Positions 3,043 to 31,640 of a stretch of 31,640 nucleotides of DNA are shown here, one piece after another; the stretch's first letter is position 1; every line of letters starts with the position of its first letter. The notes under the pieces were generated by a model that worked only from the letters and a program-made list of their open reading frames with translations, was not told the DNA's origin and ran no database searches. Source of the DNA: a virus. Where the stretch lies: positions 1 through 31,640 of IMG/VR virus record IMGVR_UViG_3300029309_000193, one strand, 5' to 3'. A program made the position numbers and the translations under genes.

Positions 3043-3930
3043 TTATTCAACTTTTTTTAACTTTAATCCGTAATTATTTACACCTTTTTTAGGTTTAAAA
3101 TCATCACGAAATATTAATTTGTTTTCTCTTTTGAACTTATTGTAGTTAACATAATGGTGGTGTCTGCCATATCTCCATACAAGTTTTGTAACATCTGGGT
3201 GTAATCGCATCTGCATATTAGATTTAGGTATTGTGCCTTCTTCTGCATAGAACTCATCTGTATTACCACCTTTAACAGTTTGTGTGTTTGCTTTCTCTTG
3301 TAAAAAAACATTGAATTGTACTGTACACCAACCTTTCTTTAATATTCGTAAAGACAAATCAGTATCTTCGTTATACCTACCTCTCCATCTATCTGGTAAA
3401 GGTAAATCGTTTCTAATTAGATTGCATGAGTATATTCTAGTATTTACTGTAAATGGTCCATATTGGTGTGCCCATTTATCTATAACAAAGAATGTATAAT
3501 TAGGTCCTGCCATTCCTATGTTTTTATATCTCAATACAAAATCTTCCATTACCTTAAATGGTGTGCCATCTATACATTTAATCTCTAGGTTATTCTGCCA
3601 TCTTCTGAAACATTTTATATTATCGTCCATTACCCAATGCCATTTGTAACCTCTATCTATTGAATGTTGCCATATAAAATTACGAGCAGGTCCGGGTCCC
3701 TTAGATTTTCTATCGCCTAAATCGTCACACGTATCGTAATCGTCTTGGTATGTCTTATCTAACACGAGTATATTCTTTTTCTGCACCACCTTCGCATACT
3801 CCGAGTACTCTTGTTCTTCAACAACTACTGTGTAAGATACACCCATTTCTTCTAATGCCTTGATAGTTAATCTACTATCTGCTCTACCCTTTGATGGTAT
3901 ATAGATGGGGAATTGGTGCTTAACTGCCAA
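3043..3930 (-). CDS. TET-associated-type glycosyltransferase (TAGT-like), putative DNA-base modifier
   Basis: A GT-A-like glycosyltransferase of 295 residues. It begins with FPIYIPSKGRAD, has a DDN motif at residues 102-104 (a likely metal/nucleotide-sugar site) after YKWHWVM, and a long conserved block RWRGRYNEDTDLSLR near residues 182-196. GGNTDEFYA and a late HPDVTKLVWRYGRHHH follow. This motif set is that of the TET/JBP-associated glycosyltransferases described by comparative genomics in phages, which are thought to add sugars to oxidised pyrimidines in phage DNA. It overlaps the ParB-like gene by 11 bases and lies just before the terminase genes, which fits modification before packaging. 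No TET/JBP oxygenase is visible in the window. The actual substrate is unknown. Confidence 0.75.
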   Translation of the reverse strand: MAVKHQFPIYIPSKGRADSRLTIKALEEMGVSYTVVVEEQEYSEYAKVVQKKNILVLDKTYQDDYDTCDDLGDRKSKGPGPARNFIWQHSIDRGYKWHWVMDDNIKCFRRWQNNLEIKCIDGTPFKVMEDFVLRYKNIGMAGPNYTFFVIDKWAHQYGPFTVNTRIYSCNLIRNDLPLPDRWRGRYNEDTDLSLRILKKGWCTVQFNVFLQEKANTQTVKGGNTDEFYAEEGTIPKSNMQMRLHPDVTKLVWRYGRHHHYVNYNKFKRENKLIFRDDFKPKKGVNNYGLKLKKVE

Positions 3931-23818: not shown

Positions 23819-25704
23819 CTTGAAGAGTCCTCTTTTGCATTTATTCTAAAATCACCTAAAGACCAATCATCACTTGTGCCAGTACTAGAGTATTTTACAG
23901 AAATCTGTCTACCTTTTGCTCTTGTGCTTACTTTTTCAGTAGATTGTGTGATTGTAAATGGTCCCTTAGTTACCTCAGAACCATTAGGAAATTTACGACA
24001 TTTAAATTCTAAGAATAAATTTGTATCACTTGTCATTGTTGCATCTGGTACAATTCTATCTATTAAAAAAGTTCTGTTACCTGTTTCGTCTATTTCTAAC
24101 TCTCCACTCTCCACAAAACAATTCATCGCCTGTCCGTCATCACTTGTACCACTTTCATGATTATATAATTTTGCATTACTATCAAATGCAAATGGAACAG
24201 TTTTAAAACCTTGTGCATCTAACCATACATTTCTGTCTAATGTACCAATCGTCCATACATTTTCGGCATAATTATAGGTAACATAACTATCAGGTTCTGG
24301 ATTAACTGTGCCTGCTGTGTTATCTTCGCTAACATAATACCATATAATTTCATTAAATTTTTTATTCTGACCAACATAAGTTTTATCAATATATCTTTGT
24401 TGTATTCTATTAAATACAAAATATTGAACAGTACATGGTAATTCTTGAACAGAACCATTATAAACAAAAAAATTACTTTTACCTATCCAATATACATTAC
24501 CATCAACACTAATCGCACCATTTTTGGCAACTGCTCCACAATTAACTGCTAATAATCTAAATGAAAAAGTAAATGGTGGACCAACAAATGTCATTCCGTA
24601 TACTGCCTCATCTGTATTTATGAAGGTTTCATCTTTTGTAGGTATAATCGAAACAATCTTGTTACCTACCTCTAATCTTTGGTCTCCAGCGGTATTTGTT
24701 GCAGTTGGTGTAAATTTTGTAAAATCTTCTTGGTCTGAAAACCTAATCAACATTGGGTCTTGGTCTGTAGTACCTACCAATGTGGTACCACCTACAATTA
24801 AATGTCTATCTGGAAAAGATATTGCTATTGTTCTGTTTTTAGTTGGAACATCTGTTGCACCTGCAATACTTGATACCAACACTGCTCTGTTACCTTCTCC
24901 TGCTGATGTGTCCCAATAATATATTTGTCCGTTTCTATTATTTGCTAATAAATCATCTCCCCATAATTGCAAAGACCATTGGGTTGCTTCTAATGCAACT
25001 GTATCACTATCTACATCTCTTGCAGTTCCCCATGTACTTTCTCCCCATGTACCTACACCCCAACCAGTAGCCGTGTCTGCACTTTGTATATTCATTTGGT
25101 CATCGCGACCTATAAGATATTTTATGTCTAAACCTGTTCCACCACCTGTAGCAGAACTAGATGCCTGACTTGGTACCTCTATTGTGAATGTATTTGTACC
25201 AGTTACAGTTATTTCATAACCTTCAATTCTATTTAAGGTGTCAGCACTTATCCCACCTACTGCGGTTGCTTCTTCAATAACTATATAATCACCAGTTTTT
25301 GCACCATGTCCTGTATCGGTAACAGTTATTGTTGTAGAATTATTGTTTGTTGCCAATGGGTTAGAAAGATTTAATGATGTTTTTCTTAAAGGTGTAATAT
25401 CATACAAAACACCACTATTTATAATGTATAAATGACTATGTGTACCTAATGCTATTCTATCTATACCATCTGTTATAGACCTCCAAAATATTGCATTTTT
25501 TGGTTTACCTTGTGCTAATGTTGAAGACTCGGTATTAACATTATTAAAATATGTTTCTTGTTCCCAACCACCTATTTTTGTAGGGTAACCATTTCTAAAT
25601 CTAATTAAATTACTATCAACATAAAATGGCCCATTTTTACCTGCGGCATATTCTGTAATATCTTTTACAATACCTGCATTTAATTTTAAAAGTCTGTAAC
25701 TCAA
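23815..25704 (-). CDS. Large tail/head-completion structural protein, phage-stabilisation-like
   Basis: A 629-residue beta-rich protein. The opening LNAGIVKDITEYAAGKNGPF, RFRNGYPTKIGGWE is shared with large neck/tail proteins of podovirus-like marine phages (stabilisation or hub type). Repeated aromatic and Asp-rich strand motifs (GWGVGTWGESTWGTARD, WSLQLWGDDLLANNRNGQIYYWD) look like propeller blades. A conserved VYWIGKSNFFVYNGSVQELPC region follows near 405-425. It overlaps the lysozyme gene by 4 bases. It is probably a neck or tail-tube protein keeping DNA in place; the exact role is inferred. Confidence 0.6.
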   Translation of the reverse strand: MSYRLLKLNAGIVKDITEYAAGKNGPFYVDSNLIRFRNGYPTKIGGWEQETYFNNVNTESSTLAQGKPKNAIFWRSITDGIDRIALGTHSHLYIINSGVLYDITPLRKTSLNLSNPLATNNNSTTITVTDTGHGAKTGDYIVIEEATAVGGISADTLNRIEGYEITVTGTNTFTIEVPSQASSSATGGGTGLDIKYLIGRDDQMNIQSADTATGWGVGTWGESTWGTARDVDSDTVALEATQWSLQLWGDDLLANNRNGQIYYWDTSAGEGNRAVLVSSIAGATDVPTKNRTIAISFPDRHLIVGGTTLVGTTDQDPMLIRFSDQEDFTKFTPTATNTAGDQRLEVGNKIVSIIPTKDETFINTDEAVYGMTFVGPPFTFSFRLLAVNCGAVAKNGAISVDGNVYWIGKSNFFVYNGSVQELPCTVQYFVFNRIQQRYIDKTYVGQNKKFNEIIWYYVSEDNTAGTVNPEPDSYVTYNYAENVWTIGTLDRNVWLDAQGFKTVPFAFDSNAKLYNHESGTSDDGQAMNCFVESGELEIDETGNRTFLIDRIVPDATMTSDTNLFLEFKCRKFPNGSEVTKGPFTITQSTEKVSTRAKGRQISVKYSSTGTSDDWSLGDFRINAKEDSSR

Positions 25705-26147
25705 ACTGTTATATTCCCCATTCTTTTACATAATCTTTCTGCGCGATTTGGTACTTGTGAAAACCATTTTGAATTTCGCATCTCGTTTTCTGCACCTTTC
25801 CAATCATGATTTACTACATTTTCTTTCATACGAATAAATTTAGATAAACGAGGTCGCCCAAGATTAAACATCATATTAGCAATAATTAATTGTGCCTCAT
25901 CTGGTAATGTAAAAAATTCATCATAAAGTATTGTACAATCTTCAATGACCTTTTCTACGTCTTTTAAGAAGCACTCGTTAACTCTTTCTTCACTTACCTC
26001 TGTACCTACCTCAAAATCGTTTTCTGGGTCTGTAGCCTTACATAAATGCCCAATTCCAAAAGTTTTATAACCTAAATGGTCTAAGTACACTTCGTATTTT
26101 ACGCCTTCATCTTCAATCAATTCTGTTTTTAATTGTTCAATATCCAT
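25701..26147 (-). CDS. Endolysin, GH24 T4-type lysozyme
   Basis: A 148-residue lysozyme that cuts the glycan strands of peptidoglycan at lysis. The catalytic Glu14 lies in EDEGVKYEVY, Asp23 in YLDHLGYKTFGIGH, and Thr29 completes the T4 E-D-T triad. The remainder (MMFNLGRPRLSKF..M, NRAERLCKRMG) fits the GH24 C-lobe. No signal peptide is visible, so release needs a holin. It is in the lysis cluster, four bases overlapping the tail protein and directly after the zinc-ribbon gene. Confidence 0.92.
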   Translation of the reverse strand: MDIEQLKTELIEDEGVKYEVYLDHLGYKTFGIGHLCKATDPENDFEVGTEVSEERVNECFLKDVEKVIEDCTILYDEFFTLPDEAQLIIANMMFNLGRPRLSKFIRMKENVVNHDWKGAENEMRNSKWFSQVPNRAERLCKRMGNITV

Positions 26148-26326: not shown

Positions 26327-26461
26327 TTATCTCTTTTTTCTTTTGGCTTGTGCAAAATGTTTGGCTGTTGGTCTACCTTTTGTACCTTTTTTTCTCATTT
26401 TCTCGCCACTGCCTGCTTTAATTCTTTTTCTCTTGGCGTGTATATTTCTATATAAACTCAT
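26327..26461 (-). CDS. Very small basic protein (44 residues)
   Basis: A 44-residue highly basic protein (LYRNIHAKRKRIKAGSGEK, GRPTAKHFAQAKRKKR). The ATG overlaps the holin stop (ATGA). Very short basic proteins with LY.NI..KR and a G.P.A pattern occur in many marine phages next to lysis or late genes. They are probably nucleic-acid binding or structural, but no function is known. Confidence 0.6.
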   Translation of the reverse strand: MSLYRNIHAKRKRIKAGSGEKMRKKGTKGRPTAKHFAQAKRKKR

Positions 26462-26853
26462 TTGGTAAGACCCTTTTGTTTTTCATAGGTTCTAAGACCT
26501 CCGATGCCAAGCATACCGCCGAGAACAGTTAAAAGTGTACCCATATCAAAATCAGGCAAATCTGGTAATTCTAAACCAGCAAAACTGGCACCAAATATAA
26601 TTAAATCTTTTACGATAAAGTGATAGGCAAAAGCAATCGCACAGACCCACCCAACAGCAGGGCGCCAACCGCCTTTAAATATTGAGCCTGATTGTGCTTC
26701 TGCTTTATTAATCTCTAATTGTGCAAGTAAAGCCTCTTGATGGTGTTTCTCAGACATTGTGGCAATTTCATGTGCCAATTTAGCTTTTTGGTCTGCATCT
26801 GGTATAAATTTATCTAATAATCCAGTAACTGGTCCAATCAATGCCTGTAACAT
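26458..26853 (-). CDS. Holin, 3TM / gene-transfer-agent type
   Basis: A 131-residue protein of the 3TM holin family. A soluble helical N-terminus (PDADQKAKLAHEIATMSEKHHQ) is followed by the family hallmark GSIFKGGWRPAVGWVCAIAFAYHF and two further hydrophobic segments (IIFGASFAGL, MGTLLTVLGGMLGIGGL). Holins pierce the inner membrane and let the endolysin through. GGAGAT precedes ATG 26853. It is close to the lysozyme gene in the same operon, which supports the call. Confidence 0.85.
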   Translation of the reverse strand: MLQALIGPVTGLLDKFIPDADQKAKLAHEIATMSEKHHQEALLAQLEINKAEAQSGSIFKGGWRPAVGWVCAIAFAYHFIVKDLIIFGASFAGLELPDLPDFDMGTLLTVLGGMLGIGGLRTYEKQKGLTK

Positions 26854-27011: not shown

Positions 27012-27211
27012 TTTAACCTCCCTACAGGTAATTTTTGGCATCTATATTTAACAGGTTTCCATAAAGGATAATATTTATGTACCTGTCTACTTATCTCTAA
27101 AGCTCTTTCTTTACACAATTTTTCTGTTTCATAAGGTCCCCTTGCATCTTCTAATGTTTGACAGGTATTTGGTATTGCTATCGCACATATTATTACAAAT
27201 GCCTTAAACAT
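26999..27211 (-). CDS. Small exported cysteine-containing protein
   Basis: A 70-residue protein with a hydrophobic signal sequence (MFKAFVIICAIAIPNTC) and a mature basic part with Cys at about 33 and 58 (EKLCKERAL, YRCQKLPVGR). It is probably periplasmic with one disulfide. Position in the lysis cluster suggests a spanin-like or lysis-accessory part, yet no membrane-spanning pair for a spanin is seen. It starts on the last base of the EF-hand gene stop. Confidence 0.6.
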   Translation of the reverse strand: MFKAFVIICAIAIPNTCQTLEDARGPYETEKLCKERALEISRQVHKYYPLWKPVKYRCQKLPVGRLKWKI

Positions 27212-27525
27212 TATTTTTTATTCATAAAAGCACTAGCACCCATATATGCACCAACAATACCAGCACCACTAATATAAAATAAATTACTAATATCAGATAA
27301 AGCCTTGACTCTTTCAATATCAACAAAGAACATAGCACCAGTAAATAAACCCATAGCAACCAAACTGGCAGTCGCCATTCTTCTCTGTGCTCTTTGTTTC
27401 CGTAAATCATGTTCTAATTTTTTGACTTCGGTAACGTAGGCAAACTCTTCATCAGTTACCACACCATCACCATCTTTATCGTATTCGGCATATTTGCTAT
27501 TATTTTGTAATGTTTTTGCTTTCAT
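27211..27525 (-). CDS. EF-hand protein with two membrane helices
   Basis: A 104-residue protein with a canonical EF-hand loop at residues 16-27 (D16, D18, D20, T24, E27 as ligands) in YDKDGDGVVTDEEF. A charged linker (LEHDLRKQRAQRRM) is followed by two membrane helices (about 50-67, 78-98). Proteins of this layout recur in marine phages with unknown function. Calcium binding outside a membrane hairpin next to the holin suggests a Ca-sensitive lysis or membrane role. The family is recognisable by layout; function is inferred. Confidence 0.65.
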   Translation of the reverse strand: MKAKTLQNNSKYAEYDKDGDGVVTDEEFAYVTEVKKLEHDLRKQRAQRRMATASLVAMGLFTGAMFFVDIERVKALSDISNLFYISGAGIVGAYMGASAFMNKK

Positions 27526-27526
27526 A

Positions 27527-28084
27527 TTATGTATAACTATTTTTAAAATTAGAATTAATTATAATTCTTCGTTTGTATTTTGTTGGCGAATGTCCAGAGT
27601 GCATTAAATCTCCATCAAATATCACCAATCTGTTAGGTTTTGGCGAAACTCTTTTTTGTATTTTGCAATTTCTATTATATTGGTTTTTAGTAACATTGTA
27701 AAATACAGTATCACCATCAGATTCATTTATATAAAAAACGCTAGCCTTGTGTGGAAAAGAAAAGTCTTGATGAGCATTATGTAAAAAATTATTTGGTGAC
27801 CATGTAACCATGTCTGCTCTAACCCTTAATATTTTATTACACTCTGTTGCATCTAAAATTTGACTTGTTAAAGGTCTTACAAAATGTGCAACTTGTGAAT
27901 CTGTTACTCCATAGTCATTATAAAGCCAATGAGTAAATCCATAATTACTAAAAGTAGTATCTTCTTTATCTAATAAAGAAATGTTATTGTTATAATACCA
28001 TGGAAATTCATCACCTTGCAGAGCTTGTTGTAACTCTTCAAAATAACTTTTATTTATGAAATTATCTATTATTTTACAAAACAT
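27527..28084 (-). CDS. 2OG-Fe(II) oxygenase, third of three
   Basis: A 185-residue dioxygenase. It would use 2-oxoglutarate, O2 and Fe(II) to hydroxylate a substrate. Iron ligands His105 and Asp107 lie in NAHQDFSFPHK, and the distal His162 in GDLMHSGHSP. Arg172 can bind 2-oxoglutarate (YKRRIIINSN). The sequence between is jelly-roll-like (ASVFYINESDGDTVFYN, RLVIFDGD). It starts one base pair after the preceding gene's TAG (TAGTCAATG). It differs strongly from the other two oxygenases. Substrate is not deducible. Confidence 0.82.
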   Translation of the reverse strand: MFCKIIDNFINKSYFEELQQALQGDEFPWYYNNNISLLDKEDTTFSNYGFTHWLYNDYGVTDSQVAHFVRPLTSQILDATECNKILRVRADMVTWSPNNFLHNAHQDFSFPHKASVFYINESDGDTVFYNVTKNQYNRNCKIQKRVSPKPNRLVIFDGDLMHSGHSPTKYKRRIIINSNFKNSYT

Positions 28085-28087
28085 TGA

Positions 28088-28675
28088 CTAAACAAAAGGT
28101 TCTCCACAAAACCATGCAACCAAAGAATATCTTGTTCCTTTAGTTATAGGTTTTACTCTATGAACCATATATGACGGAAATACTATGACAGTTCCTCTTT
28201 TGCTTTCGACCTTCCCTTTGTTATGAAATTCAAACTCACCACCATCAAATTCATCATTCAATATTATTGACATTGATAATTTTCTAGTTTTGCCATGTGT
28301 AAATTCGTTATTATTGTTAAATCTTGTAAATCCGTTACCGTCTTGATGAAATATAAAATGACCATTTTTTTTGTATCTTGCTATTTGCATACTTTCGCAA
28401 GAATCTATTTGAAAATTCCAATTAGAATTTTGATTTGCTACTTCTAAATAATGCCAAACTAAATCATAAACCCATCGTTCATTGCACCAAGCAATATCAG
28501 TAATTCTTTGTTTTTCATCATATTGATTTTCAGAATTAAAGTTTGTTTGTACTGTGGCTTTTTTCCATTTTTTTTTGCCTAAATCTATAATTTTTTGACA
28601 AGTATCTTTGCTTATTTCATTTGCAAAAAACCAATATGGGTCAACGGCATTTTTTATTATTTGTGCTCCGTCCAT
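28088..28675 (-). CDS. 2OG-Fe(II) oxygenase, prolyl-4-hydroxylase-like, second of three
   Basis: A 195-residue dioxygenase with His110, Asp112 in HFIFHQDGNG, distal His172 in VFPSYMVHRVKP, and Arg182 after TKGTRYSLVAW. The FDGGEFEF strand before the distal His is typical of the prolyl-4-hydroxylase/PKHD group. The ATG follows directly after the first oxygenase's stop (TAAATG). PKHD-type enzymes hydroxylate proteins, though no specific substrate can be deduced here. Confidence 0.85.
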   Translation of the reverse strand: MDGAQIIKNAVDPYWFFANEISKDTCQKIIDLGKKKWKKATVQTNFNSENQYDEKQRITDIAWCNERWVYDLVWHYLEVANQNSNWNFQIDSCESMQIARYKKNGHFIFHQDGNGFTRFNNNNEFTHGKTRKLSMSIILNDEFDGGEFEFHNKGKVESKRGTVIVFPSYMVHRVKPITKGTRYSLVAWFCGEPFV

Positions 28676-29302
28676 TTAAATATCCCACTTGTAGCTATAC
28701 CAACCTGTAACAATCATTTTTTCTTGTGTATGTGAGATTTGACCTACATGAGTGTGTGTCCAATCAGTTGGAAAAATAACTGTTTTACATTTTTGTGCTT
28801 TTATGGTTCTTTTTTGATATGTAAAGATAGTTCCACCATCATCAAGGTCATTCAAATAAGTCATAAATACCAAACATCTTCTTGCAGTATTATTTAATCC
28901 GCCATCTCTTTCAAAATGCTCTACCTTGAAACCTTGACCCTTTTTGTAATACTGAATATTATAATCTTCAACAATATCAAATCTATGTAAATGATTAACC
29001 ATGGGATAAATCTTAATATACTCATCTAAACATTTTTGTAATTCTATGCGATAATCTAAAAAAGGTTGTTCCGTATTACCTGCGGCAATAGATATATCTG
29101 TAGATTCTTTATAATGTTTTTGCTCTGTAGCTCCACCTTCTGTTTGGTTTTTGCAAACACCCGGTGCATGGTATTGTTTATTAGCATGATAAAAGTCTAC
29201 TATTGCATCACATATTCCCTCTGGTATATGCCATGTTTGTATAAAGTCTTCGCTTTTATTATAAGAATATTGAGGTATATTTTTCATTTTTGTGATTGCC
29301 AT
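28676..29302 (-). CDS. 2OG-Fe(II) oxygenase, marine-phage type, first of three
   Basis: A 208-residue dioxygenase. Ligands His129 and Glu131 lie in FKVEHFERDGG (an HxE variant). The distal His183 or His185 is in PTDWTHTHVGQ, and Lys195 binds 2-oxoglutarate in EKMIVTGW. CLVFMTYLND and DGGTIFTYQ are the usual strands. ATG 29302 overlaps the upstream stop as TAATG and is preferred; 29317 is the upstream option. This type occurs beside tail genes in marine T4-like and podovirus-like phages. Role unproven. Confidence 0.85.
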   Translation of the reverse strand: MAITKMKNIPQYSYNKSEDFIQTWHIPEGICDAIVDFYHANKQYHAPGVCKNQTEGGATEQKHYKESTDISIAAGNTEQPFLDYRIELQKCLDEYIKIYPMVNHLHRFDIVEDYNIQYYKKGQGFKVEHFERDGGLNNTARRCLVFMTYLNDLDDGGTIFTYQKRTIKAQKCKTVIFPTDWTHTHVGQISHTQEKMIVTGWYSYKWDI

Positions 29303-29682
29303 TATATGCGAACCCAACCAGTTGTATTATCTGCCTGATAGGCGTCTTCGTCCCACATATAAATATAACCATCATTTGGAAAAGGACCTATAGGACAATC
29401 CCATTGCCATGTTGTTTTGTTCAATATCCAACTTGGGTGTGGTTGTGCATTATAAAATACGTCATTTTCACTATCATAAATCATACCGGGACCAGCAAAA
29501 TTACCTCTAATTGCAACTCCTCCATCTGGTTCTCTTGTTTCTGGGTCTACATGAACACCATTAAGAGTATTATATGATGTTTTAATCCATGTTTCTCCAG
29601 TTTTCCATTCATCTATAAATGCTTTATCGGCAACAATAACTTCTGTTACTATTCCGTCTACTACTTTTGCATAATGACCCAT
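29302..29682 (-). CDS. Marine-phage tail-associated hypothetical protein
   Basis: A 126-residue protein (HYAKVVDGIVTEVIVAD, WIKTSYNTLNGVHVDPETRE, then IRGNFAGPGMIYDSENDVFY and HPSWILNKTTWQWDCPIGPFP). The tryptophan- and aromatic-rich end and the W.LN..TW.W motif are common in small proteins beside tail fibres of marine T4-like and podoviruses. It probably assists tail-fibre assembly or is part of the fibre tip. It lies just downstream of the glycine-rich adhesin. Confidence 0.6.
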   Translation of the reverse strand: MGHYAKVVDGIVTEVIVADKAFIDEWKTGETWIKTSYNTLNGVHVDPETREPDGGVAIRGNFAGPGMIYDSENDVFYNAQPHPSWILNKTTWQWDCPIGPFPNDGYIYMWDEDAYQADNTTGWVRI

Positions 29683-29688
29683 AATTAA

Positions 29689-30828
29689 TTATCCTTGAAA
29701 TTGATATTTAAGAACAACTATACCAGAGCCACCGTTACCACCACTGCCAGATAAAGCGGCTCCACCTGCTCCACCTCCAGTATTTGTGCCACCGGGACCA
29801 CCTGCTCCGTTAGATGTGTTACCAGCAGTACCATTGGCTAAACCACCAGTTCCACCACTACCAGATGTTCCACCAGAAGAATCTTCAGCACCTCCGCCTC
29901 CTCCTCCAGTACCACCATTTCCTGCACGACAGTTTGAAGGACCTAAACCTAAATTTCTATGTGCTCCATGACCTCCACCACCAGAAAATGTTTTACTACT
30001 TCCTAAAATACTACTATTAGAACCATTACCACCAGTTCTATTTCCATTATTTGGAGGTGTATTTGCTGGAGCATTTCCTGCTCCACCACCAGACCCAGCC
30101 GCGATGTTTGCAGACCCACTTCCTCTTGGACCTGAACCACCACCATCATTACCTTGACTTGGAGATGTACTTGGTGTGTTACCATTTCCACCACCTGATG
30201 TTTGGTTAGCGCCACCTATGCCTCCACCTCCACCAGAGCCACCATTGCCACCTTCATTAATGCTGTTTCCTTGATGGAAAGCGGCACCCTTACCACCACC
30301 AGCAGAAGTTATATTAGAAAAAGTAGATGAAGAACCGTTGTTGCCCGGATTACCATTGGTTGAACCGCCTGAAGCACCAGAGCCACCACCTCCAACAGTT
30401 ATACTAAAACTCCCTGCACTAGCAGATAAGTTACCTGTACGGAAGCCACCACCTCCTCCACCACCAGAGACTTGACCACCAGCACCTCCACCTCCAGCTA
30501 CAACTAAATATTCAATCGAGTTAGAACCAGCAGAATTACCAGCATCGTTTACAGTAAATGTTCCTGAAGAATTAAATCTATGTATTTTAAAGTTACCAGA
30601 TGTGTTTGTTGTACCACCTGATGCGGATACATAAGCCACGTTTTGTGAACCTCTGAAATCACCCATTTTAATGGTACCTGATGTCGGTATAGTTCCGTTA
30701 TTACCACTTATACCAGAGGGAACATTTGAACCACCAGAATAATATTCACTTAAACTTATTGGATTAGAACCACCAAACTCCGTTTGAATGGCGGACATTG
30801 CTATTGAGCCAGATGATGGAATTGCCAT
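29689..30828 (-). CDS. Glycine-rich tail adhesin (receptor-binding candidate)
   Basis: A 379-residue protein. The N-terminus (MAIPSSGSIAMSAIQTEFGG, then LSEYYSGG and GTIKMGDFRGS) is the docking module common to marine phage tail proteins. After SNSIEYLVVAGGGGAGG it becomes mostly glycine with Ser and Asn, in runs of up to seven Gly, then closes with GGNGGSGIVVLKYQF. Such sequence can fold as packed polyglycine II helices, as in the gp38 adhesin of Salmonella phage S16. It is next to the tail fibre, so receptor binding is likely. Composition makes the gene locally GC-rich. Confidence 0.75.
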   Translation of the reverse strand: MAIPSSGSIAMSAIQTEFGGSNPISLSEYYSGGSNVPSGISGNNGTIPTSGTIKMGDFRGSQNVAYVSASGGTTNTSGNFKIHRFNSSGTFTVNDAGNSAGSNSIEYLVVAGGGGAGGQVSGGGGGGGFRTGNLSASAGSFSITVGGGGSGASGGSTNGNPGNNGSSSTFSNITSAGGGKGAAFHQGNSINEGGNGGSGGGGGIGGANQTSGGGNGNTPSTSPSQGNDGGGSGPRGSGSANIAAGSGGGAGNAPANTPPNNGNRTGGNGSNSSILGSSKTFSGGGGHGAHRNLGLGPSNCRAGNGGTGGGGGGAEDSSGGTSGSGGTGGLANGTAGNTSNGAGGPGGTNTGGGAGGAALSGSGGNGGSGIVVLKYQFQG

Positions 30829-30831
30829 TTA

Positions 30832-31640
30832 CTACCCCTTTTTTAATTCATCAATTTCTGCTTTTAAGTCTTTAATTGCCTCAATCAAGACTGCTGTAAG
30901 TTTACCATAATCTACTGATTTTGTTTGCATTTCATCATCAGCAGTTAAAACAACCTCTGGAACAATAGCCTCCATGTCTTGTGCTAGTACACCTACTTTT
31001 GTTTTTGCATCATCTTGGTCGTTTCTTTTGTAATAAACACCTTGCATTTGCATAACTTTTTCTATGCCATTTTCTATATTAGAAATATCTGTTTTTAATC
31101 TTTTATCAGAAAAGGCAGTAACATCATTATTAAATGTCGCCGCTCCAGCCGCTGACATATCAAGTCTAAGTGCAGTAACAACAGAACCACCATCATTCCC
31201 TTTAATTTCAATATCTTGGTCTTGAATAGGATTTTTGATTACAAAAAAGCTTGAAGAATTTGTTAGCTCTCCAAAAACAGTTCCATTATCAGCTAATTTT
31301 ATATCAGCACCATTAGCATCAAGAGTAAGGTCTCCACCTACGTCTAATGTTAAATCACCACTATCAGATATTGTAGAACCATTAATGGTAATATCATCTA
31401 CAGTTAATGTTGTGAGTGTTCCTAGTGATGTTATGTTGCCTTGAGCCGCAGTTGACAAAGTTCCTGCAAGTTCTCCACCAGAACCATAGATAACAGCTTT
31501 GCTATTAACAACAGTGTTAGCACTAGAACCATCAAGTAAATTTAATTCTGTTGCAGTAGATGTAACAGAGGTGCCATTTATAGATAAAGCATCTGTTTCC
31601 GTAGTACCATTAACATCTATACTGCCCTCTAAATCAATAT
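30832..31640 (-). CDS. Tail fibre with S74 intramolecular chaperone/protease (5' end beyond window)
   Basis: The frame is open from the right edge to its stop at 30832, so only the C-terminal part is seen. A repetitive beta-rich fibre region (DGSSANTVVNSKAV, LTTLTVDDITINGSTISDSG, DLTLDVGGDLTLDANG) leads to the S74 domain, beginning FSDKRLKTDISNIENGIEKV. It uses the conserved Ser-Asp-x-x-x-Lys motif for autoproteolysis that releases the folded trimer. The end is coiled coil (LIEAIKDLKAEIDELKKG). A TTG at 31458 is not the true start. It probably adsorbs to the host cell. Confidence 0.85.
   Translation of the reverse strand, partial: IDLEGSIDVNGTTETDALSINGTSVTSTATELNLLDGSSANTVVNSKAVIYGSGGELAGTLSTAAQGNITSLGTLTTLTVDDITINGSTISDSGDLTLDVGGDLTLDANGADIKLADNGTVFGELTNSSSFFVIKNPIQDQDIEIKGNDGGSVVTALRLDMSAAGAATFNNDVTAFSDKRLKTDISNIENGIEKVMQMQGVYYKRNDQDDAKTKVGVLAQDMEAIVPEVVLTADDEMQTKSVDYGKLTAVLIEAIKDLKAEIDELKKG

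Follow-up and report, generated by a model that had tools for sequence, protein, structure and literature searches.

A fibre-tip cassette with three divergent 2OG-Fe(II) oxygenase genes, exchanged between phage backbones

Background

Few unexplained accessory genes are as common in ocean phages as those for 2OG-Fe(II) oxygenases, which are usually called host-metabolism genes. Clusters of 2-7 such genes are usual in the marine phages concerned (PMC3037559, PMC9602691, PMC9599517), with several 2OG genes per cyanophage genome (PMC3037559), 24 in S-SCSM1 (PMC9602691) and eight, all non-orthologous, in pelagiphages of the HTVC023P type (PMC9599517). Those of cyanophages have been proposed to act in 2OG turnover, NtcA and nitrogen stress (PMC3037559; PMC9602691); we found no function assigned to phage 2OG oxygenases in the literature examined, and a literature search found no direct report of phage tail-fibre hydroxylation. 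Here we describe three adjacent genes of this kind, O1, O2 and O3 (Table 1), in a 31,640-base IMG/VR record, classed as linear and probably a fragment, which in its entirety is called the window below.

The cluster of the T4-like cyanophages comprises the gene groups T4-GC 240, T4-GC 412, 'leprecan', 'denV' (T4-GC 100) and T4-GC 611. In S-SM1 and S-RSM4, adjacent orthologues of O3 and O2 follow a tail-fibre gene in the same order as in the window, and are themselves followed by a 'leprecan' or hypothetical gene, by 'denV' (a member of the O1 family) and by more 2OG genes. O3 is the orthologue of T4-GC 240 and O2 that of T4-GC 412, sharing clades with the S-SM1 and S-RSM4 proteins (100/100 support) as well as their order. 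These are myoviruses with genomes of 174-194 kb, however, and they differ from the window in having longer clusters, genes labelled 'ferrochelatase' and an O1-family gene that is not directly beside O2. Among the pelagiphages, HTVC008M has four adjacent 2OG genes, while HTVC033P and HTVC023P each have two beside tail genes, together with homologues of the glycine-rich and phrog_7759 genes of the window; all three have other backbones and gene orders, and the 'ferrochelatase' family is present in their clusters. The fibre-side neighbours of the trio thus recur in the isolates S-RSM4, HTVC033P and HTVC023P. By DNA the nearest isolates are Roseobacter phages CRP-901 and CRP-902 (PMC10149686), which have virion, GNAT and ejection-type genes in common with the window but different fibre and lysis genes; a search of CRP-902 for PF13640 found no oxygenase. 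Environmental loci found with O3, many of them incomplete at their ends, carry at least two genes of the O1, O2, O3 or 'ferrochelatase' families in 57 of 77 cases and at least three in 39 of 77, counts that are ascertained by O3 itself. Adjacent oxygenases near fibre genes are therefore not an unusual arrangement, such clusters being already known in ocean phages.

Gene layout around the trio

Table 1. Features of the window in and around the oxygenase trio. PHROG entries given for O1-O3 are their best matches.
Feature	Position	Strand	Length; motif	Matches and remarks
TAGT, TET-associated glycosyltransferase	3043-3930	-		PF20691 E 8.8e-43; next to ParB-like gene
Phage lysozyme	25701-26147	-		PF00959 E 6.1e-8; lysis cassette downstream of trio
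Holin (GTA_holin_3TM)	26458-26853	-		PF11351 E 3.7e-21; lysis cassette downstream of trio
EF-hand membrane protein	27211-27525	-		PF00036 E 4e-4, below cut-off; first gene past module boundary
O1, 2OG-Fe(II) oxygenase	27527-28084	-	185 aa; HxD...H...R	PF13640 E 4.9e-6; phrog_274 E 1.7e-46
O2, 2OG-Fe(II) oxygenase, PKHD-type	28088-28675	-	195 aa; HxD...H...R	PF13640 E 2.1e-15; phrog_61 E 7.9e-38
O3, 2OG-Fe(II) oxygenase	28676-29302	-	208 aa; HxE...H...K	PF13640 E 9.3e-8; phrog_61 E 1.1e-31
Small fibre-tip-associated protein (function not assigned)	29302-29682	-		phrog_7759 E 1e-25; directly upstream of O3-O2-O1
Glycine-rich fibre/adhesin-like protein (Gly_rich_2; GlyRich)	29689-30828	-		PF21722 E 8.2e-8; phrog_2295 E 3.9e-36
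Tail fibre, C-terminal part, S74 (endosialidase) chaperone domain	30832-31638	-		PF13884 E 3.3e-16; runs off window

An initial annotation, made from the letters of the window, had described the three genes as packed head to tail between tail-adhesin and lysis genes, and this is borne out: the S74 fibre, glycine-rich and phrog_7759 genes lie upstream, and the EF-hand, holin and lysozyme genes downstream. It had also placed them in a late operon, which agrees with their position beside late tail and lysis genes; that they are expressed late is something we infer. The length of O3 is counted from the ATG, while the open reading frame as listed runs on to 29317 by way of an upstream TTG. The EF-hand gene encodes a small membrane protein whose one calcium loop is EF-hand-like, and the lineage conserves this gene at its place between the holin and the oxygenase slot.

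Enzyme identity and fold

Against Pfam PF13640 (2OG-FeII_Oxy_3), O1, O2 and O3 score 27.8, 57.9 and 33.4 bits, all above the curated cut-off of 27. Their ligands are nearly invariant: H105, D107, H162 and R173 of O1 are kept in 45/45, 45/45, 44/45 and 43/45 homologues; H110, D112, H172 and R182 of O2 in all 109; and H129, E131, H185 and K195 of O3 in 104/104, 103/104, 103/104 and 103/104. Ligand loss across homologues, the finding that the initial annotation had named as speaking against its reading, was thus looked for in all three families and the ligands were found to be kept. As judged from their sequences, the three proteins have intact 2OG-Fe(II) oxygenase active-site signatures, and the trio was correctly spotted as three consecutive enzymes, which are intact and of an already known kind. 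The three sets of ligand motifs that had been listed are all present as well, but HxE...H...K belongs to O3 (starting at 28676), and O1 (27527), to which it had been given, has HxD...H...R; the misassignment arose because coordinates were listed in ascending order and motifs in the order of transcription.

AlphaFold models of O1 and O3 were built on alignments of viral homologues. That of O3 (pLDDT 90) has as its top PDB matches the bacterial prolyl 4-hydroxylase (P4H) 4iw3, from Pseudomonas and with EF-Tu, which ranks first, then PHD2 and 5c5t, the viral collagen prolyl hydroxylase (vCPH) of PBCV-1; that of O1 (pLDDT 93) has human HIF PHD2. Both models show a double-stranded beta-helix fold, with a Foldseek probability of 1.00 to P4H/PHD2, so that the nearest solved fold is a prolyl hydroxylase for O3 (4iw3) and for O1 (PHD2) alike. 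For O2 the assignment of this fold rests on its sequence matches to PKHD-type hydroxylases and to PiuC (E 1e-4 among PDB sequences). The prolyl 4-hydroxylases compared (Pseudomonas P4H, PHD2 and PBCV-1 vCPH) are like O1 and O3 in the double-stranded beta-helix and the facial triad; the identity is 12-18%, at which protein hydroxylation chemistry is suggested and not demonstrated, and O3 differs from them in having HxE for HxD. The P4H motif HxD...H...K is in fact absent from the whole trio, since O1 and O2 have Arg for Lys and O3 has the Lys but HxE. The Lys of O3 lies 10 residues past the second His, which we take to be a P4H-like position. Taken with the models, this suggests enzymes that may resemble P4H in how they work but are not classed as P4H. 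The PHROG 61 proteins of a published survey are likewise prolyl-hydroxylase-like (EGLN3-like; PMC12774648).

The three are also as divergent from one another as had been noted at the outset. In blastp, O1 has no significant match to O2 or O3, and O2 and O3 share 24% identity over only 66 aa (E 2e-5). A maximum-likelihood tree puts O2 and O3 in two clades with 100/100 support, each with cyanophage and pelagiphage members. Since HMM scores had already been used to assign the rows of the tree to families, this split is expected; the informative part is the test on the pair in the window, in which forcing O2 and O3 into one clade was rejected (AU p=1.7e-5). Recent duplication, which the initial annotation had named as the other finding that would speak against it, is ruled out by this result for O2 and O3 and by the absent blastp matches for O1.

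Oxygenase suites and the exchange of the cassette

Near-collinear siblings with different fibre modules differ in how many oxygenases the slot holds and of which type. Contig G001, of 51 kb, runs collinear with the window over nearly every gene and has only O2 between its EF-hand and fibre genes; other relatives in the lineage have O3 only, O3 and O2, or extra oxygenases of the PF13759 type. Oxygenases, of subfamilies that vary, occupy 18/21 of the same-lineage slots inspected (other small genes are also found there), and in three loci with unlike fibre proteins (L214, L216 and L217) no oxygenase was recognised in the slot. The initial annotation had regarded single copies as familiar and three different ones as suggesting a stepwise system. 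With clusters usual in marine phages, and with relatives that have O2 alone, O3 alone or O3 and O2, this is not supported: an obligatory three-step pathway is unlikely, and the trio is not a fixed pathway but a suite that changes with the fibre module. At another position, in locus L115 (714-2703; also in L113), whose terminase is closely similar to that of the window, a group-1 glycosyltransferase and an O3-family oxygenase stand where the window has TAGT.

Positions 27545-29648 of the window are 91-94% identical in nucleotides to IMG/VR contig 3300029309_001298, a phage of different backbone (in blastn as two pieces, 27545-29160 and 29169-29648, against loci L010 and L170, both from that contig). 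The contig (loci L010, L167 and L170) has the same trio in the order O3-O2-O1 together with phrog_7759, at 89-98% amino-acid identity, and the high-identity match stops at the 3' end of O1. Two bases past O1 there begins a virion gene that is only distantly related to that of the window, and the lysis genes are not in between. The order S74 fibre, glycine-rich protein, phrog_7759, oxygenases is found in many loci.

Co-variation was measured as the correlation of similarity matrices (Mantel r). Overall, O3 and O2 correlate with the fibre-tip genes at r 0.65-0.78: with O3, phrog_7759 gives 0.78 and the glycine-rich protein 0.73, and phrog_7759 gives 0.70 with O2 (O3 against O2 themselves, 0.84). 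On the other side of the cassette, O3 and O2 against the EF-hand protein or the lysozyme span -0.12 to 0.17 (EF-hand 0.07 with O3 and -0.12 with O2; lysozyme 0.12 with O3), and the link to the holin, 0.27 with O3 and 0.44 with O2, is weaker than that to the fibre tip. The lysis genes track the backbone instead, the lysozyme and the virion protein being correlated at 0.85. Given the backbone virion protein, the partial r of O3 with phrog_7759 is 0.68; O3 also tracks the backbone, more weakly (partial r 0.37), while O1 shows no fibre-tip co-variation after the backbone is allowed for. Most of these loci were recovered by way of O2 or O3, a possible bias, although the difference between the cassette's two sides was measured within one and the same set of loci. 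Fibre tip and enzymes together make up a cassette swapped between phage backbones, and this modularity, with enzymes travelling alongside the fibre tip, looks to be the part that is new.

Possible targets of the enzymes

Joint exchange of the enzymes and the fibre tip suggests that the former modify the latter. Our tentative proposal, which we put at a little under an even chance, is that O1-O3 hydroxylate fibre-tip proteins of the phage itself. The oxygenases would be active and expressed late, alongside the fibre genes; each would hydroxylate particular residues, most likely by prolyl-type chemistry, in the fibre or fibre-tip proteins of the genes immediately upstream; and the hydroxylation would tune folding, stability or receptor binding, such that each fibre type carries its own enzymes. 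The proposal draws on the Pfam and PHROG matches, the near-invariant ligands, the prolyl-hydroxylase-like models, the shared segment ending at O1 and the co-variation, on the varying oxygenases in 18 of the 21 slots with none recognised in the loci of unlike fibre, and on the fibre-side neighbours that recur in isolates. Against it, 22 of 29 loci found by phrog_7759 have no oxygenase of the O1-O3 or 'ferrochelatase' types nearby, O1 does not follow the fibre tip with the backbone taken into account, the O3-type gene of L113 and L115 has a glycosyltransferase, ParB and the terminase for neighbours, well away from fibre genes, and co-variation with the fibre tip can come from physical linkage alone. 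The initial annotation had mentioned a multi-substrate system acting perhaps on virion proteins; this may be so, and is the direction to which the module co-variation points.

If instead the enzymes were auxiliary metabolic genes acting on host metabolism or the 2-oxoglutarate pool, the region after the fibre genes would be no more than a hotspot tolerant of insertions. Such a hotspot would also be in keeping with the variable gene number and the swapping, and a metabolic role is what has been published for cyanophage 2OG genes (PMC3037559, PMC9602691); we nevertheless think it unlikely, as oxygenases occupy so many of the same-lineage slots (even with other small genes occurring there) and follow the fibre tip even with the backbone allowed for, and as a generic 2OG sink would have no need of several divergent, conserved active sites. 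The enzymes might also modify the host surface (a glycan, lipid or receptor) late in infection, for example against superinfection or against virions sticking to debris. Enzymes and fibre would then travel together since the two have to suit one receptor, which explains the co-variation equally well, and the FlmC 2OG family gives a weak match to O1 (E 5.4e-6, well short of the cut-off); but peptide hydroxylases lead the structural matches of O1 and O3, and a late change of surface would be of limited use to a lytic phage, so that we regard this as distinctly improbable.

Phage DNA is a further candidate target, which O1-O3 would hydroxylate in the manner of TET/JBP before the glycosyltransferase at 3043-3930 glycosylates it. 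The window does encode TAGT, and in its relative L115 that place between ParB and terminase is taken by another glycosyltransferase with the O3-family gene next to it. None of O1-O3 matches Tet_JBP (PF12851), however, at E up to 1, and the oxygenase partner for TAGT appears to be missing, in that a TET/JBP search of the window and its relatives (including G001) gave no match, a weak result in that control genomes gave none either. TAGT was found in 2 of the 12 records first checked and in 0 of 19 others carrying these oxygenases (31 record searches, with one record present in both sets), so that the glycosyltransferase and the oxygenases are not associated across records; O2 is the only one of the three that accompanies TAGT in the collinear sibling G001; and neither the window nor G001 yielded a cytosine (C5-)methylase or a thymidylate synthase. 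We consider DNA hydroxylation by the trio very improbable, although TAGT without a recognisable TET, together with the O3-family gene by a glycosyltransferase in L115, speaks for keeping DNA among the candidate targets.

Hydroxylation of the fibre tip has the merit of being a testable alternative to a host-metabolic role, as enzymes whose movement follows the fibre tip, and neither the neighbouring lysis genes nor the backbone, make hydroxylated residues in the virion's fibre proteins the thing to look for. As a wider conjecture, held with somewhat less confidence than the proposal for this phage, marine phages may carry interchangeable hydroxylase suites, each fitted to a particular fibre tip, swapped along with it and maturing it by residue hydroxylation, a post-translational modification of receptor-binding proteins that would be widespread.

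Two particular substrates were considered, and no target residue was recognised. The conserved prolines of phrog_7759 are not supported as the target, being identical with or without an oxygenase nearby. Nor is a collagen-like fibre supported as a general substrate: a short GPT repeat adjoins an oxygenase gene in just three loci, and where the repeats are longest, in two loci, there is no such oxygenase. The fibre proteins with short collagen-like GPT repeats are encoded about 0.4-1 kb upstream of O2-family genes, in L110 (1625-2653), L134 (3360-4970) and L208 (3616-4701).

Probably mislabelled families, and a fusion

Two labels in current use bear correction. Locus L001 7732-8220 and the matches H21-H60, labelled 'DNA endonuclease V/denV' (phrog_274, T4-GC 100), are by similarity O1-family 2OG oxygenases. 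Scored against the O1 profile, the 'denV' copy of S-SM1 reaches 170 bits; at E<=0.01 it matches nothing in Pfam. Carried by O1-family proteins in many phage records, the label looks, from sequence similarity, like a propagated error. The other is that of the phage 'ferrochelatases' (about 175-215 aa), said to partner 2OG genes, which have an HxD...H pattern like that of 2OG oxygenases, conserved at about 95-98% over 43 homologues. The four that were tested (L001 11117-12233, L003 9477-10121, L004 9246-9866 and L007 6569-7210) have no Pfam match at E<=0.01. The reported partnership of ferrochelatase and 2OG genes may be one of oxygenase with oxygenase, although no significant match emerged when the family's profile was compared directly with those of O1 and O3. 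In loci L045-L085 (e.g. L045 2467-3567) there are proteins of 360-400 aa with a C-terminal O2-type domain and an N-terminal half that aligns with the 'ferrochelatase' family, a natural fusion; the match of that family to the O2 alignment falls on the N-terminal half of these fused proteins, and so reflects fusion and not homology of fold.
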